A DNA stretch of 64,000 nucleotides, taken from positions 2,264,501 to 2,328,500 of the forward strand of contig NC_018485.1 of assembly GCF_000304315.1 (NCBI RefSeq). The letters run 5' to 3'. This document shows positions 6,211 to 30,331 of this stretch, piece by piece. A model generated the notes under the pieces. It was not told the origin of the DNA and searched no databases. It saw only the letters and a list, made by a program, of their open reading frames with translations. The DNA is from Methylocystis sp. SC2. GTDB taxonomy: Bacteria; Pseudomonadota; Alphaproteobacteria; Rhizobiales; Beijerinckiaceae. Position numbers and translations under genes: made by a program. Each line of letters opens with the position of its first letter. Positions within the stretch are counted from its first letter, which is position 1.

Positions 6211-7026
6211 TCACATGCCGACCCGCGGCGCGCTTTGTTCGCGGCGTCCGGCGCGTCGCTCAAAAAACAGCGCCTGGCTGATGACGGCCTTGAGGCTTTC
6301 GACATTGAAGGGTTTGGCGATAAGAAAGGCCGGCTCGGGCGGCTCGCCGGTCAAAAACCGCTCAGGGTAGGCGGTGACGAAGATCACCGGGATGGAGAGA
6401 GAGACGAGGATCTCGTTTACGGCGTCGAGCCCGGAACTGCCGTCCGCGAGTTGAATATCGGCGAGAATCAGTCCCGGGTTGCCGTCTTGGATGGCCGCCA
6501 CCGCCTCGCCGTGCGTGCGCGGCATGCCGACCACTCGATGTCCCAGCTCCTCGACGATGCTCCTCAGGTCATGGGCGATCAGGGGCTCGTCCTCGATAAT
6601 CAGCACGTCGGTCGCGATCTGGTCGGCGATCTCGCCGTTCGCCGCCTCGATCAGGGCGCCAGCCTCGACCTCCGAAACCTTTAGAGTCTGACCGATCTGG
6701 TCGAGATCGAAGCCTTCGAGCGCCTGCAGCAAAAAGGCTATTCGCGGCTTCAGCGAAATCGCGTCGAGATTGCGTCGACCGTTTTCCGCCAGCGCCCCGG
6801 AGCGATCGGTGTGGGCGTTGATCGGCGACGCCGCCCAGACGTCCAGGAACAGACGGTATACAGCGATGCGCAGGTCATCGGAATCTGCGATGCGGTTGGG
6901 TTCGGCGACCACCGTTTCGAGAGTGGCCAGCACATAGGCGTCGCCGCCTTCCCGATCGCCGACCAATGCGCGCGCAAAGCGTCTCAAATAGGGAATATGC
7001 GCTGAAATTTCCTTTGACGCCGACAT
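6211..7026 (-). CDS. phyR: General stress response regulator PhyR
   Basis: PhyR, 271 residues, is the anti-anti-sigma switch of the alphaproteobacterial general stress response. Residues 1-135 are a sigma-factor-like (EcfG-mimicking) domain; residues 138-258 are a receiver domain with acidic pair E145/D146, phospho-acceptor D190 (LADIQL), T218 and K238. Phosphorylation exposes the sigma-like domain, which sequesters NepR and frees EcfG. It is divergent from nepR-ecfG across a 320-base gap, the classical arrangement. No PhyK-type kinase gene is adjacent. Confidence 0.97.
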   Translation of the reverse strand: MSASKEISAHIPYLRRFARALVGDREGGDAYVLATLETVVAEPNRIADSDDLRIAVYRLFLDVWAASPINAHTDRSGALAENGRRNLDAISLKPRIAFLLQALEGFDLDQIGQTLKVSEVEAGALIEAANGEIADQIATDVLIIEDEPLIAHDLRSIVEELGHRVVGMPRTHGEAVAAIQDGNPGLILADIQLADGSSGLDAVNEILVSLSIPVIFVTAYPERFLTGEPPEPAFLIAKPFNVESLKAVISQALFFERRAGRREQSAPRVGM

Positions 7027-7126
7027 GTCTTACAACTCCAGCAGCATCGAGCCTCGCAGAGGAGAGGAGTGCGGGCTAAGCGGATTCAAAACCTGGACAA
7101 TACGTCAAAACTGCTCGGCATTTTAG

Positions 7127-7151
7127 GGAACCAATCCTTCAGCGGTGCGTT
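7127..7151 (+). promoter_or_regulatory. EcfG promoter of nepR-ecfG
   Basis: GGAAC at 7127-7131 and CGTT at 7148-7151 with a 16-base spacer, oriented toward nepR-ecfG, matching the autoregulatory promoter known for this operon in other Hyphomicrobiales. It lies in the 323-base gap (7027-7349) between phyR and nepR, which otherwise shows no gene; the codon composition before about 7350 is AT-richer than the coding genes around it. Confidence 0.85.
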
Positions 7152-7349
7152 TTGCCTATCGTCCTTGCGGCGCAGTATAACGCGGCGGCTCCAGAAATCA
7201 TGCATATTAAAATAGAGGGCTCCATGGGGAATAAGAATCCGGAGAATATAGTTGCGCGCGCGAAAGCAGACGACGACGCTTTCGCAGGCGACGGGCGGTA
7301 TTCTTCGAGACCGGGCCCTCGCAGGGTGGAGACGTTTGCAGGGTGGGTG

Positions 7350-7592
7350 ATGACACGTGACGAATTCGGCGAGCGTCGCCGAGGAGTAGGGGAGGCGCAC
7401 TGCGGCGCACAGCCGGCCCAGCGACCGCGGCCGGTGGAATTTCAGGACTCGATCGGAAAGGAACTCCGCAATCTCTATGATGATGTCGTGGCCCAACCGG
7501 TTCCCGATCGGTTTCTGAAACTTTTGAACCAACTCGAAACGAATGTGCTATCCTCCCCGGCGACGTTAAGCGCGCCGAGGAAGAGTGAGTGA
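7350..7592 (+). CDS. nepR: Anti-sigma factor NepR
   Basis: NepR binds and inhibits EcfG until phosphorylated PhyR titrates it. The diagnostic core, IGKELRNLYDDVV and then PVPDRFLKLLNQLE, is in the C-terminal half. Start uncertain: ATG 7350 gives 80 residues, nearest the family length of about 60; ATG 7224, with a GAGGG site, would give 122 residues, and the extra segment has non-host-like codon use. The stop overlaps the GTG of ecfG by four bases (GTGA), so the two are translationally coupled, which keeps sigma and anti-sigma stoichiometric. Confidence 0.9.
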   Translation: MTRDEFGERRRGVGEAHCGAQPAQRPRPVEFQDSIGKELRNLYDDVVAQPVPDRFLKLLNQLETNVLSSPATLSAPRKSE

Positions 7593-8158
7593 AGGCAGGC
7601 GAAGAAGCGCATTCGGCAGGACAGGGATTGAAGGCTGATCTGATCTCAGCCATCCCGAGCTTGCGCGCGTTCGCTGTGTCGATTTGCGGAAACTCCGATC
7701 GCGCCGACGACCTCGTTCAGGAAACGCTGGTCAAGGCCTGGGGCAGCCTCGCGACCTTTTCGGAAGGCACCAATCTCACCGCCTGGCTGTTCACGATCCT
7801 GCGCAACATCTACTACAGCGAATTTCGCAAGCGCCGACGCGAGGCCCCCGATCCGGACGGGGTGATCGCCGGACGATTGGTCGCGCCGGAATCGCAGCAC
7901 GCGCATATGGATTTTCTCGACTTCCGCGACGCGATGCAAAAATTGCCGCTCGATCAGCGCGAGGCGCTGATCCTCGTCGGCGCCTCCGGCATGTCATATG
8001 AGGAAGCGGCTCAAATCTGCGGCTGCGCGCCCGGCACGATGAAGAGCCGGGTGAATCGCGCCCGCAATCGGCTCTCAGACCTGATGGCGGCGCCGCCAAG
8101 CGCCGAGCCGCGCGAATGGTCCTCGGCCGAGCAGCTCTCCGCAGCCACGCGCGATTGA
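7589..8158 (+). CDS. ecfG: General stress ECF sigma factor EcfG
   Basis: ECF15-group sigma factor, 189 residues. Region 2 (about 28-95) contains DDLVQETLVKAW and the -10 recognition helix FTILRNIYYSEFRKRRR; region 4 (about 120-172) contains LPLDQREALILVG and the HTH YEEAAQICGCAPGTMKSRVNRAR. It directs transcription from GGAAC-N16/17-CGTT promoters, three of which occur in this window. Starts with GTG inside the nepR stop codon. Controlled by NepR/PhyR and by its own promoter at 7127. Confidence 0.96.
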   Translation: MKAGEEAHSAGQGLKADLISAIPSLRAFAVSICGNSDRADDLVQETLVKAWGSLATFSEGTNLTAWLFTILRNIYYSEFRKRRREAPDPDGVIAGRLVAPESQHAHMDFLDFRDAMQKLPLDQREALILVGASGMSYEEAAQICGCAPGTMKSRVNRARNRLSDLMAAPPSAEPREWSSAEQLSAATRD

Positions 8159-25648: not shown

Positions 25649-27943
25649 TCACCCGCCGACGCCGAAGGCGGCGAGCGCCGCCATATTGACGATCTCCGTG
25701 TCCGTCGCGCCGAGTTGGACGATTTGAACCGGTTTGTCGAGTCCGACGATCAGCGGACCGAGCACGGTCGCGCCGCCCAGTTCCTGTAACATTTTTGTCG
25801 AAATAGCCGCCGAATGAAACGCTGGCATGACAAGGACGTTCGCCGTATCGGTGAGTCGCGAAAACGGATAGGCGCTCATGAGATCCTTGTTGAGCGCGAT
25901 GTCCGCGCCCATCTCGCCCTCATATTCGAAGTCGACGCGCCGCTGGTCGAGAACGTTGACCGCCTGATGCACGCGCGCCGTGCGCTCGCCCGGCGGATAG
26001 CCGAATGTCGAAAAGGCCAGCATGGCGACTCGCGGCTCGAGTCCGATGCGGCGCGCAACGCCGGCCGCCTCGATGGCGATTTCGGCAAGTTCGTGGGCGT
26101 CGGGCATTTCGGTGATCGCCGTATCCGCGACGACGACGACGCGGCCGTTGGCGAGAATGATCGACGCGCCGATGACGCGATGGCCAGGCTTGTGGTCGAT
26201 GACGCGGCGCACGTCTTCAAGCGCATGGGAGAAATTGCGCGTCACGCCCGTCACCATGGCGTCGGCGTCGCCCTGCGCCACCATCGCGGCGGCAAAATGA
26301 TTGCGGTCCTGATTGATCAGCCGTTGGCAGTCGCGCATCAGAAAGCCCTTGCGCTGCAGGCGCTCGAACAGGAACTGCGCATAGACGGCGTTGCGGTTCG
26401 AGAGTTTGGCGTTGTGGATTTCGATCTCTGCGGGAAGTTCAAGGCCGGCGTTTTCCGCCGCCTCCACGACCCGATCCTCCCGGCCGACAAGCACGGCGCG
26501 TCCAAAGCCCTGATTGACGAAGGCGAGCGCGGCGCGGATCACCTGCTCCTCTTCGCCCTCGGCGAAGACGACGCGCTTGGGATCACGCCGCACGCGTTCG
26601 TGAATCGTCTGCATCAGCCCGGCGATCGGATCGCGGCGCGCCGATAGCTCGGCGCGATAGGCCTTCATGTCGACGATGGGGCGGCGTGCGACGCCGCTGT
26701 CCATCGCCGCCAGCGCCACCGCGGGCGGAATGATGGAGATCAGGCGCGGGTCGAAGGGCGCCGGGATGAGATAGTCGCGGCCGAAACGCGGCCGGGCCCC
26801 ACGGTAGGCGTTGGCGACTTCGTCCGGCACGTCCTCGCGCGCGAGATCGGCGAGCGCCTTCGTCGCAGCGATCTTCATCTCCATGTTGATCGTCTTGGCG
26901 CGCACGTCGAGCGCGCCCCGGAAAATGTAGGGAAAGCCGAGGACGTTATTGATCTGGTTGGGGTAGTCGGAACGGCCGGTGGCGATGATTACGTCGGCGC
27001 GCGTGGCGCGCGCTTCTTCCGGCGTGATCTCGGGGTCGGGGTTGGCCATGGCGAAGACGATCGGATTATCCGCCATGCTGCGAAGCATGTGCGGCGTCAG
27101 GGCGCCCTTGACGGAGAGTCCGTAGAAGACGTCGGCGCCTTCCAGCGCCTCGGCGAGCGTGCGCGCTTTGGTGTCGACGGCGTGCGCGCTCTTCCACTGG
27201 TTCATCCCCTCCTGGCGGCCGCGATAGACGACGCCCTTGGTGTCGCACAGGATGACATTGCGCGGATCGAAACCCATGGCCTTGGCGAGATCGAGACAGG
27301 CGATGCCGGCGGCGCCAGCGCCATTGCAGACGAGTCTCGCCGATCCGATATCGCGGCCCGTCAGCAGCAGCGCGTTGAGCATGCCGGCGGCGGAGATGAT
27401 CGCCGTGCCGTGCTGATCGTCATGAAACACCGGGATGTCCATGAGGTCGCGTAGCCGCTCCTCGATGACGAAACATTCCGGGGCCTTGATGTCTTCGAGA
27501 TTGACGCCGCCGAATGAGGGGCCGAGATACCGCACGGCGTTGACGAAGGCGTCGACCTCCTTGGCATCGATCTCGAGATCAATGGAGTCGATGTCGGCGA
27601 ACCGCTTGAACAGCGCGGCCTTGCCTTCCATCACCGGCTTCGCCGCCAGCGCGCCGAGATCGCCGAGCCCGAGGATCGCGGTGCCGTTGGTGATGACGGC
27701 GACCATATTGCCGCGGGTCGTGTAATCGAACGCCGCGGAAGGATCCTTGGCGATGGCCAGCACCGGCGCGGCGACGCCCGGCGAATAGGCGAGCGACAGG
27801 TCGCGCTGAGTCGCCATCGGCTTCGAGGCGACGACGGCGAGCTTGCCGGGCCGGCCGCGCGAATGAAACAGCAGCGCCTCCTTATCCGATATCGTCGCGC
27901 GCTGTTCCCCTTCCGCACGATTACCCGCCATGTCGTCGGCCAT
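25649..27943 (-). CDS. maeB: NADP-dependent malic enzyme with phosphotransacetylase-like domain
   Basis: MaeB, 764 residues from ATG 27943. The N-terminal malic enzyme (about 1-430) decarboxylates malate to pyruvate with NADP; seen motifs include [25 protein letters not shown], the metal site [10 protein letters not shown] and the nucleotide loop GAGAAGIAC. The C-terminal phosphate-acetyltransferase-like domain (about 440-760) includes [12 protein letters not shown] and ends with [20 protein letters not shown]; in this family it is regulatory (acetyl-CoA responsive), not usually catalytic. Upstream GTG at 27982 is possible. Confidence 0.96.
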
Positions 27944-28043
27944 CTCCGCCCCTTTGCTGTTGCGACGCAACACGGCGACCATAACCGGAGCGTGGCGGCG
28001 TCCACAAGCGCTCGCCGATCAGGGCGGCCGCGCAAAGCGGCAC

Positions 28044-28068
28044 GGAACAATGACGAAGCGTCAGCGTT
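28044..28068 (+). promoter_or_regulatory. EcfG-type general stress promoter
   Basis: GGAAC at 28044-28048 and CGTT at 28065-28068 with a 16-base spacer, the same geometry as the nepR-ecfG promoter. The predicted start near 28076 gives a leader of about 70 bases to the 24-residue peptide gene at 28146. This makes the small-peptide/membrane-protein operon a likely general stress target. Confidence 0.8.
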
Positions 28069-28145
28069 TTAGGGCATGCGCGGCTGTCCATGCGGCGGCC
28101 GAGGTCAGGATTCCGAAAAGCAGCGGTCGAAGCGGAGGTTTCAAA

Positions 28146-28220
28146 ATGAATGGCATCATTTATCTCGTCGGACTCATCGTCGTCGTCCTGGCGATTTTAT
28201 CCTTTCTTGGTCTGCGCTGA
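28146..28220 (+). CDS. 24-residue single-helix membrane peptide
   Basis: A short gene, ATG 28146 to TGA 28218-28220, with a GGAGG site 7 bases upstream (28134-28138). The product begins MNGIIYLVGLIVVVLAILSF and is almost entirely one transmembrane helix ending in Arg. Strong ribosome site, an EcfG promoter 78 bases upstream and an 11-base gap to the next membrane protein argue that it is real. Very similar short hydrophobic proteins are familiar in Hyphomicrobiales annotations, but I know of no function. Confidence 0.75.
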   Translation: MNGIIYLVGLIVVVLAILSFLGLR

Positions 28221-28231
28221 GGAGACATCAG

Positions 28232-29155
28232 ATGACTGACTTCGCGCAAACCGGATTCGGCGTCAGGCCCCGCGGCGAAACGGCGGCCGTGACGGCCGCC
28301 CAAGAGATGTCGGGCCGCTCGACCAACACGGATTGGGCGGCCATCATCGCCGGCGCCGTGATCGCCGGCGCGATTTCCTTCATCATGGGGGCGTTCGGTT
28401 CGGCGATCGGCCTGTCGATGACGTCGCCTTATGGCGGCGCGTCCTTGATTGTCCATCTGATCGCGCTGACGCTCTGGGTGCTCTGGGTCACCGTTTCGAG
28501 CTTTGCGGTCGGCGGCTACGTCACGGGACGGCTGCGCCGGCGCGCCGGAGACGCTTCGCAAGAAGAGGTGGAAGTGCGCGACGGCGTCCATGGCCTGGTG
28601 CTCTGGGCCGCGGCGATCGTGGTGTTCGCGCTGATCGCTGGCGCCTCGATATTCCAGCTTGCGAAGAGCGGCGTTTCCGCCGCGGCGTCTGCGGAAGGCG
28701 CAAGAAGCGAAACGTCAGCGCTTGCGCCCACGGTGACTCCGGTCGAGGAGCGTGTCGATTTCTTGTTGCGCGGCGATGGCGACGTGAACGCGCGGGGCGT
28801 GACGATGCCGGCCGAATATCCGCGCGCGATCGTCAAGCGCATCGTCGAGCGCGGCTTGGCGACAGGCGAAATCTCCGGTGAAGATCGCGCCTATCTCGTC
28901 AATGTTCTCGCTTCTCGCTCCGGCCTCGCGCCGCTGGAAGCGGAAAGGCGCGTGGATCTGAGCGCCGAACGCCTGCGCGAAGATCAGGCGAAGGCGAAGG
29001 AGGCCGCCGAGACCGCGCGCAAAACCGGCATCCTGCTCGCCTTCCTTTCCGCGGCGACAATGCTCATCGGCGCGGTGGCGGCTTGGTACGGCGCGACGCT
29101 CGGCGGGCGCCATCGCGATGAAAACGTCGGCGTCGCGGCGTTCTCCCGCTTCTAA
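28232..29155 (+). CDS. Stress-operon membrane protein of unknown function
   Basis: A 307-residue protein from ATG 28232 (GAGGAGA site). An N-terminal cytoplasmic tail leads to helices at about 36-58, 70-92 and 124-146, resembling the TM-repeat proteins of Hyphomicrobiales with GAVIAGAISFIMGAFGSAIG. A large soluble domain (about 150-270) follows, rich in charged helices (AERRVDLSAERLREDQAKAKEA coiled coil region), and a final helix (about 273-294). Most of that soluble domain is likely periplasmic or cytoplasmic depending on topology, which I cannot fix. Flanked by two 24-residue membrane peptides in one EcfG-driven operon. Confidence 0.82.
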   Translation: MTDFAQTGFGVRPRGETAAVTAAQEMSGRSTNTDWAAIIAGAVIAGAISFIMGAFGSAIGLSMTSPYGGASLIVHLIALTLWVLWVTVSSFAVGGYVTGRLRRRAGDASQEEVEVRDGVHGLVLWAAAIVVFALIAGASIFQLAKSGVSAAASAEGARSETSALAPTVTPVEERVDFLLRGDGDVNARGVTMPAEYPRAIVKRIVERGLATGEISGEDRAYLVNVLASRSGLAPLEAERRVDLSAERLREDQAKAKEAAETARKTGILLAFLSAATMLIGAVAAWYGATLGGRHRDENVGVAAFSRF

Positions 29156-29168
29156 CTGGAGGTGTGAA

Positions 29169-29243
29169 ATGTTCCGCTCAATCTTGCTGTGGATGCTCGG
29201 GATTCCGATACCGATCATCATCCTGCTGGCGCTCTGGCGCTAA
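29169..29243 (+). CDS. 24-residue membrane peptide, last gene of the EcfG operon
   Basis: ATG 29169 to TAA 29241-29243 behind a GGAGG site (TGGAGGTGTGAA), 13 bases after the preceding gene. The product begins MFRSILLWMLGIPIPIIILL and is one hydrophobic helix with an IPIP kink and a terminal WR. It is the same length as the peptide at 28146 but not homologous to it. A strong terminator starts 16 bases after the stop. Function unknown; probably a small subunit or modulator of the 307-residue membrane protein. Confidence 0.75.
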   Translation: MFRSILLWMLGIPIPIIILLALWR

Positions 29244-29258
29244 CATATGATGCGAGAA

Positions 29259-29286
29259 AGCCCCGGAAGCGCGTTCTTCCGGGGCT
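29259..29286. terminator. Intrinsic terminator between convergent genes
   Basis: Perfect 10-bp stem AGCCCCGGAA/TTCCGGGGCT with an 8-base loop, followed by TCTCTT on the plus strand and preceded by a short A-rich stretch that would serve the minus-strand DUF3616 gene. It probably ends transcription of both the small-peptide operon and its convergent neighbour. Confidence 0.8.
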
Positions 29287-29290
29287 TCTC

Positions 29291-30331
29291 TTATGGCTTG
29301 CGGGGAATGTCGAAGACCAGCGGCGCGCCGTCTTCGCCGCCATCCGAGAGCACGAGAAGGCGGAAACGCTCGGGCGTTGCGTCGAGCGCCGTGACGGCTT
29401 CAGGCTTGATGAGGTAGTTCTTCTTATCTCGGGGCGCACCGTCCAAATCCAGGATCGCAAGTTCGCTTGCTTGCGCGACGCCTTGACGAGGCTGCTCAAT
29501 TCTGAAAATCGAATAGCTCGAGGCCTGCTCGTCGTCGTCCGGGCCCACAAGCGCGAGGAGCGCGTCGCCGGCGAATGTCAGATCGCGAATGGCGCGTTTT
29601 TTTCCGACGCGTATGCGGCCAACGCTCGGCGCGGCGTCGCCGCCTTCAAACAGGGCTTTCGCGTCAACGCCGACGATCAACGCCTCGCCGTTGATCGCCG
29701 GGCCGCGGAAGCCAAAATAGAGTCGTCCGTCCTTGGCCGCGACCCCTTCTATGTTGACGCCCTGTTTGCCTTTCAGATGTTTCGCATCTTTAGGCGGGTC
29801 GTCGCCGAGGCAGGCCTGCGGACCGGCGTGACCGGCGAATTCCGGCAGCCGTTCAATGATGTTCCAGAGCTCGTGTCTGGGCTCGATCGGTCCCGGCAGT
29901 CGCTTTGCGCTATCGGCGCGAAAACGTAGCACGGTCCTGTTCGCGAGATGGTCCTCGCAGGTCTTTCGCTTCACCGAGTGGGATCCGACAATATAGAAAA
30001 AATTGCCGTCGGCTGCGGCGCCCTCGGCGTCGAATTCCTCTGAAGCGATCGGCAGTGAAAAAGGCGAGCCGGGCGTCAATCGCCCCTCCGTCAAGCGCGC
30101 GAAAGCGGCCTCATGTCCTTCGTCTGTGACGATGAGGCAAAAATCCGGCGCGTTCGGCGCGCAGACAAGGCCGCTGACGTTCGCCCGCTCCTTGCCCTCT
30201 GGAAAGACAGGCGGTGAAACGCGCCACGGTTTGGGGGATTCCGGCGCGATGCGCTCCGCGGCGAAAGCGGCCGAAGACAGCCAAGCGGCGGCCATCACAA
30301 TTACGAGAAGACGAGAGACGACGCAAATCAT
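29291..30331 (-). CDS. Secreted DUF3616 domain protein
   Basis: A 346-residue protein from ATG 30331, starting with a Sec signal peptide (hydrophobic core VSRLLVIVMAAAWLSSAAFA, cleavage near residue 23). The DUF3616 signature IEGVAAKDGRLYFGFRGP is present at about residues 200-217, suggesting a beta-propeller fold related to phytase/SMP-30-like proteins. No catalytic assignment is possible. Periplasmic; single gene, divergent from mutS. Confidence 0.87.
   Translation of the reverse strand: MICVVSRLLVIVMAAAWLSSAAFAAERIAPESPKPWRVSPPVFPEGKERANVSGLVCAPNAPDFCLIVTDEGHEAAFARLTEGRLTPGSPFSLPIASEEFDAEGAAADGNFFYIVGSHSVKRKTCEDHLANRTVLRFRADSAKRLPGPIEPRHELWNIIERLPEFAGHAGPQACLGDDPPKDAKHLKGKQGVNIEGVAAKDGRLYFGFRGPAINGEALIVGVDAKALFEGGDAAPSVGRIRVGKKRAIRDLTFAGDALLALVGPDDDEQASSYSIFRIEQPRQGVAQASELAILDLDGAPRDKKNYLIKPEAVTALDATPERFRLLVLSDGGEDGAPLVFDIPRKP

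Follow-up and report, generated by a model that had tools for sequence, protein, structure and literature searches.

Why would two hydrophobic peptides of only 24 residues flank a membrane protein behind what looks like a general stress promoter? This question is raised by positions 28044-29286 of the window, the 64,000-nucleotide stretch of Methylocystis sp. SC2 DNA analyzed here. An EcfG-type promoter motif, GGAAC-N16-CGTT (28044..28068, forward strand), lies 102 bp before the start of peptide A (MNGIIYLVGLIVVVLAILSFLGLR; 28146..28220, forward strand), whose gene, predicted to encode a microprotein with a single transmembrane (TM) helix, is followed after a gap of 11 bases by the gene for a 307-residue membrane protein, here termed M (28232..29155, forward strand), and this in turn, after 13 bases, by the gene for peptide B (MFRSILLWMLGIPIPIIILLALWR; 29169..29243, forward strand), likewise a predicted 24-residue single-TM microprotein. 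The cassette described in the original prediction is confirmed in each of these elements, including the GGAGG ribosome site ahead of each peptide gene. That prediction also closed the operon with a strong terminator, and the hairpin at 29259..29286, which is assigned to neither strand and has convergent genes on either side, is indeed strong (-27.5 kcal/mol, z -4.55), but its T-run is poor and it is absent from the output of the terminator scan; we regard it as a likely terminator. The neighboring malic enzyme gene is divergent from the cassette, and a DUF3616 gene is convergent with it.

Genome annotation tends to miss genes of 24 residues (0 of the 12 peptide genes are annotated in the nine plasmid loci with gene tables, although the tables are incomplete), and chance short frames are common, with 122 frames of at least 20 amino acids overlapping 9 kb here. 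It is nevertheless extremely unlikely that A and B are spurious open frames. A and B flank M in all 11 of the closest Methylocystis loci (L001-L011), and all 11 keep both frames and the ribosome sites, with gaps of 11-14 bases; loss of the frames, start, or ribosome site in near relatives had been named as the outcome that would speak against the cassette, and this is not what these loci contain. Pooled over non-independent pairs of these loci, pN/pS is 0.126 for A and 0.173 for B; among wider relatives, picked by similarity and length and limited to frames of set length passing an E value of 1e-6, it is 0.26 over 99 distinct A genes and, more weakly, 0.49 over 64 distinct B genes. Because differences are much more frequent at synonymous than at non-synonymous positions, both peptides are judged to be under purifying selection. 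Y6, G9, V12, L18, and G22 are invariant across the 99 distinct A genes while the codons vary (six codons are used for L18), and the conserved positions include G9, S19, and G22 in A and W8, G11, and P13 in B, a pattern of Gly, Ser, Trp, and Pro that would fit packed TM helices, with the fixed small, Gly, Trp, and Pro positions suggesting a binding face. In an order-level sample of 247 genomes, A was found in 71, B in 105, and M in 76, with the peptides recurring at fixed places beside M, and selection together with this recurrence rules out spurious frames as a general explanation. Neither peptide has a Pfam or NCBIfam match over the cut-off, in scans that have low power at 24 residues, and A and B are best read as two unclassified microprotein families. 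Judged from their conservation, their place beside M, and their general stress motifs, they look like real, overlooked components of bacterial membrane protection.

The peptide-protein-peptide order is itself conserved, and the linkage of the short genes with M extends far beyond the genus. One or both peptides adjoin 130 of 135 distinct M proteins, in the orders A-M-B (57), A-M (45), B-M (14), and M-B (6), with both peptides upstream in 7, A on both sides in 1, and neither peptide in 5. A or B is upstream of M in 124 of the 135, and B is downstream in 63 (the 57 A-M-B and 6 M-B loci). This count takes each distinct M once and uses only loci from M searches, and it leans toward nearer relatives, as the best 80 of 414 confirmed stretches with M relatives in named genomes were kept, and the peptide profiles behind it were seeded from some of the same loci. 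An A frame is present in all of these best 80 of the 414 stretches. Of a set of 30 loci, 27 have A upstream of M and 25 have B downstream of it; at L025, B is upstream of M, and L027 has neither peptide. At one locus of the same genus (L012, genome G023), the M gene appears damaged, matching only residues 52-78 and 134-307, and B is kept; A was not found there.

The broader samples agree. In the order-level sample, a peptide gene lies no more than 1 kb from M at 53 of 62 strong M places, with A upstream at 27, B upstream at 27, B downstream at 9 (some places have two), and neither at 9, and genomes with M are enriched for both A (odds 5.6) and B (odds 25); this count uses 90 of 95 A places and 96 of 120 B places, leaving out weaker peptide rows and secondary M fragments, and at least one omitted weaker B place (G235) adjoins an M counted as lacking B. 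In the class-level sample of 241 genomes, with the locus of the window itself excluded, A lies directly upstream at 11 of 20 strong M places and B at 8, 19 in all, and the remaining one has neither. Among the weaker class-level M matches, 13 of the 16 used have neither peptide, 22 having been listed and 6 fragments or weakest rows left out. For these class-level counts, 44 of 49 B rows were used, without the source genome and four weak rows, together with 36 of 43 M rows. The choice of leading peptide follows the lineage of M: on a quick tree of 144 distinct M proteins of at least 230 residues, of which 110 have A upstream (7 of these also B) and 22 have B alone upstream, the leading peptide type switches once versus at least 16 times in 200 shuffles, and the B-downstream state switches 9 times versus at least 38. 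Nine of the 144 tree proteins come from loci that were fetched by a B search.

Plasmids extend the pattern further. Twelve plasmid loci, hand-picked from 72 records with a match, have the order A-M-B in Devosia neptuniae, Mesorhizobium terrae, and Beijerinckia indica; A-M in Bosea; B-M in Rhizobium, Ensifer, and Pandoraea; and M-B in Bradyrhizobium, Methylocapsa, Variovorax, Paraburkholderia, and Pantoea. A tblastn search of the peptides against plasmids returned no match although such plasmids carry them, probably owing to the low-complexity filter. Four of the plasmids with B beside M are beta- or gammaproteobacterial (Pandoraea, Variovorax, Paraburkholderia, and Pantoea), and EcfG is described as exclusive to the Alphaproteobacteria in the available portion of one report (PMC3892343). 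Since B and M are kept together in four plasmids of lineages in which EcfG is not expected, their link appears to be more than shared EcfG control. Neither peptide accompanies M at five loci with an EcfG-like site, namely L124 and, all from one genus, L122, L126, L127, and L137. At L124, the M gene is followed by a small membrane frame (2424-2547 in M-strand coordinates) that by eye resembles DUF3309 and could possibly be a substitute partner of M.

M itself has four TM segments by hydropathy (best windows 37-55, 70-88, 122-140, and 266-284), with a segment of approximately 125 residues between TM3 and TM4. The positive-inside rule would place this segment outside the cytoplasm and both ends of M inside it. 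The most conserved motifs, GRLRRR, RDGxHGL, and GGRHRDE, sit near the helix ends. M has no Pfam or NCBIfam match over the cut-off, and 32 relatives scanned with lax settings gave scattered matches of low significance only; known domains considered for M, such as MNHE (E 0.015), fell under their cut-offs. In the PDB, a search with the profile of the M family found no credible solved relative, its matches being at chance level (best E 0.1); the only PHROGs matches to M (E 0.07 and 0.095) are both of unknown function, and A, M, and B matched no PHROG of known function. The best database relative is 93% identical and comes from M. rosea. M is present in 27 of 61 genomes, and its distribution is patchy even within the genus of the source, where 23 of 37 genomes, the source genome included, have it. 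Fusion of A or B to M was also considered, and none was found among the 120 listed of 543 M homologues.

The proposal that EcfG drives the cassette draws on the conservation of the motif. In the window, the pattern with spacers of 15-18 matches three times versus 2.05 expected by chance, so that the pattern alone means little and its conservation is what counts. Of 91 deduplicated regions ahead of A, 72 contain the looser motif GGAAC-N18,19-TT within 200 bp, compared with 15 on the reverse strand and 3.8% of random windows drawn from these loci. For the strict form GGAAC-N16,17-CGTT, the figures are 27 of 91, 6 on the reverse strand, and 1.0% of random windows; GGAAC peaks 50-80 bp upstream of A. 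The predicted promoter thus stands as a conserved motif, but of the 11 closest loci (L001-L011), the window alone has the exact CGTT, the others having AGTT or GGTT. Ahead of B, 19 of 62 regions have the loose motif, and 14 have it on the reverse strand. Such a result would follow if transcription of B mostly begins further upstream, and it is weak evidence for control of its own. According to the accessible parts of the published regulon studies, the window promoter matches the consensus GGAAC-N16-CGTT of Rhizobium etli EcfG1 (PMC3892343), the consensus in Methylobacterium is GAAC-N16,17-C/GGTT (PMC4814048), and the EcfG regulon shares with the cassette a promoter of the form GGAAC-N16,17-(C/G)GTT (PMC3892343, PMC4814048, PMC6599016).

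The presumed regulator is close at hand, as phyR, a NepR domain, and an ECF sigma factor gene all lie at 6.2-8.2 kb of the 64-kb window. The phyR gene, for an anti-anti-sigma response regulator (6211..7026, reverse strand; NF006623 328.6 bits, cut-off 240; PF22029, PF22233), is taken by inference to regulate the cassette. The NepR anti-sigma domain (7443..7538, forward strand, in the frame 7152-7592) is over the cut-off for PF18557 and under that for NF051865 (33.8 bits, cut-off 100), and the adjoining sigma factor gene (7589..8158, forward strand; PF04542 and PF08281 over cut-off), which we take to be ecfG, is 60% and 54% identical to the nepR-adjacent sigma genes of loci L314 and L313, respectively. 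An EcfG-like site is also present at 7127-7151 within this locus (6211-8158). Across the class-level sample, A was found in 19 of 54 NepR-positive versus 0 of 187 NepR-negative genomes, B in 27 of 54 versus 13 of 187, and M in 23 of 54 versus 9 of 187, counts that come from related, non-independent genomes and from a NepR-positive set that includes weak matches (43 of 54 over the curated cut-off). In four class-level genomes, B lies 0.4-2.2 kb from nepR. At L316, L317, and L318, peptide B is inside or adjoins a phyR-nepR-ecfG locus, and at L316 and L317 it precedes an open reading frame (ORF) that by eye resembles superoxide dismutase. The source genome (G000) has six NepR-domain matches over the curated cut-off, as if the switch had multiplied; Methylobacterium has several EcfG and NepR copies, according to the part of that study available to us (PMC4814048).

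A and B are not confined to the neighborhood of M. In the order-level sample, 62 of 90 A copies and 60 of 96 B copies lie elsewhere, and a strong M is found in only 34 of the 68 A-bearing genomes; co-occurrence of A with B across these genomes is not clear (p 0.08). Twenty regions for each peptide were picked by hand from these solo copies, those for A holding 24 copies, and 17 of 24 A copies and 17 of 20 B copies have their own EcfG motif within 130 bp, compared with 84 of 4000 random windows (2.1%). A conserved motif at a fixed upstream place, as expected within the EcfG regulon, is therefore found both ahead of A in the cassette and ahead of the solo copies. In a neighbor scan limited to ten proteins, solo A precedes holin-III genes (PF07332) at L201, L209, and L210, with DUF3618 following the holin-III gene at L210 (over cut-off) and L201 (just under), and precedes an MscS channel gene at L215, while solo B precedes Ku at L222 and L231. 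Ku and MscS are also EcfG-dependent in Sphingomonas melonis, as given in the accessible part of PMC6599016, a likeness in which regulon targets are compared by gene name and not by peptide sequence. Around the solo copies L201-L240, no sigma factor match and one weak PhyR-like match (L217) were found. Near a solo A at L251, the stretch 1127-1366 is 44% identical over 80 residues to the window sigma gene. Tandem A-type copies approximately 60 to 70 bases apart occur away from M at L219 and in G064, G133, G157, G178, and G198, genomes of one genus (g32).

Given the evidence presented here, we favor, with moderate confidence, the explanation that 28044-29286 is a general-stress membrane operon in which A and B are accessory subunits of M that are also deployed elsewhere. 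Under this model, stress would free the sigma factor EcfG, encoded with phyR and nepR 20 kb away in the window, and EcfG would read one mRNA spanning A, M, and B. Once translated, A and B would be inserted as single-helix inner-membrane microproteins packing against the four-helix M, whose conserved motifs would, by the charge distribution, lie on the cytoplasmic face, and as small accessory subunits they would stabilize or tune M under envelope stress; elsewhere in the regulon they would be deployed alone or near other stress genes. The original prediction of subunits or assembly partners is thus favored by the near-constant presence of A or B beside M, but qualified by their occurrence away from it near holin-III, MscS, and Ku genes: accessory subunits would be found only where their partner is, and A and B, each with its own EcfG motif away from M, are not subunits reserved for M. 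M is almost never without one of the two, yet A and B do without M, and the simplest account is that they are one-helix partners of M with other roles too. On the best reading, A and B belong to the alphaproteobacterial general stress regulon and pair, as single helices, with M and probably also with other membrane proteins of the stress response. We also entertain, as a rather doubtful extension, that A and B are all-purpose, interchangeable one-helix modules, encoded in solo EcfG units around the genome, which dock onto several unrelated stress membrane proteins (MscS-type channels and holin-III assemblies as well as M) and bring these into a stress state, forming a hidden layer of the EcfG regulon, with B older than EcfG control.

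The main rival to partnership with M casts A and B as free-standing stress peptides that act directly on the bilayer, through packing, leak, or curvature, and that share operons with M only as all are needed at once. This is possible, if clearly the less probable account: the predominance of copies away from M in the order-level sample, the EcfG motifs of the solo copies, and the varied neighbors of A and B (holin-III, MscS, Ku, and others) all fit it, but co-regulation alone does not predict that 130 of 135 M proteins have A or B, nor that four plasmids from outside the EcfG lineages keep B next to M, and the fixed small, Gly, Trp, and Pro positions suggest a binding face. It is unlikely that the peptides are instead type I toxin-like molecules that depolarize the membrane and slow growth under stress, a comparison invited by the length and hydrophobicity they share with Ibs and TisB, as no sigma-70 promoter-like site for an antisense RNA was found on either strand of 27900-29500 (other promoter types being possible) and no Rfam match at the locus, while the exact residues are conserved, as are the sense order with M and the EcfG motifs of the solo copies. 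The close placement of A, ending 11 bases ahead of M, and the upstream position of A or B in 124 of 135 loci would also suit a leader or coupling frame whose own translation controls that of M and whose product is irrelevant; this is quite unlikely, since a leader or attenuator would always be ahead of the gene it regulates, with a peptide that is free to vary or bound to particular codons, but A and B occur without M nearby, B is downstream of M in 63 of 135, and the amino acids of A are conserved while its codons vary (pN/pS 0.126; six codons for L18).

Regulon studies of EcfG that count annotated genes only would miss A and B, and two recurrent candidate members would then be absent from arrays, proteomics, and knock-out libraries. 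Papers on EcfG together with a small-protein term were absent, by term counts, from the papers listed, and the nine-residue cores of the two peptides did not occur in the literature searched. The EcfG-dependent 88-nt RNA ReC64 of R. etli, described in the available part of PMC3892343, is unlikely to be a hidden A or B mRNA, as a 75-nt frame within 88 nt would have almost no leader, a judgment made on RNA length and not on R. etli sequence. One parallel is SEP6 of Sinorhizobium meliloti, which, in the portion of PMC10117765 available, is a translated novel protein of <30 amino acids with a predicted TM helix, found in the pellet (membrane) fraction and conserved in the Hyphomicrobiales; it is like A and B in size and TM helix, by description and not by sequence. 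The cassette offers a concrete and cheap test of the share of microproteins in general stress resistance in methanotrophs, rhizobia, and their relatives, and the unclassified, widespread M family gains its first candidate partners.

KdpF, CydX, and AcrZ are proteins of <50 residues with one TM helix that act on a larger membrane protein, and some are encoded beside it. A and B resemble them, by description, in size, in their predicted single helix, and in a gene adjacent to that of the partner, a single TM helix of <50 amino acids beside a membrane protein across lineages being what the 130 M loci and the four plasmids contain; they differ in being two unrelated peptides with one partner, either of which can lead, and in both also occurring solo behind general stress motifs. 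The YqaE/Pmp3, DUF1328, DUF3309, and GlsB/YeaQ proteins are small, hydrophobic, and stress-linked as well, a likeness to A and B drawn by eye and from general knowledge, but they have at least two helices and belong to curated families, whereas no Pfam or NCBIfam model matches either A or B. Some copies of A or B have ORFs nearby that by eye resemble DUF1328 (L315, L317, and L028) or Pmp3 (L216). Paralogues of M of approximately 400 amino acids (P0021, P0024, P0031, and L320 8091-9335) were also encountered; P0021, P0024, and P0031 carry the putative extracytoplasmic segment of M twice, and P0021 and others of this length are named nucleoid DNA-binding protein in one source, a name that is probably wrong.
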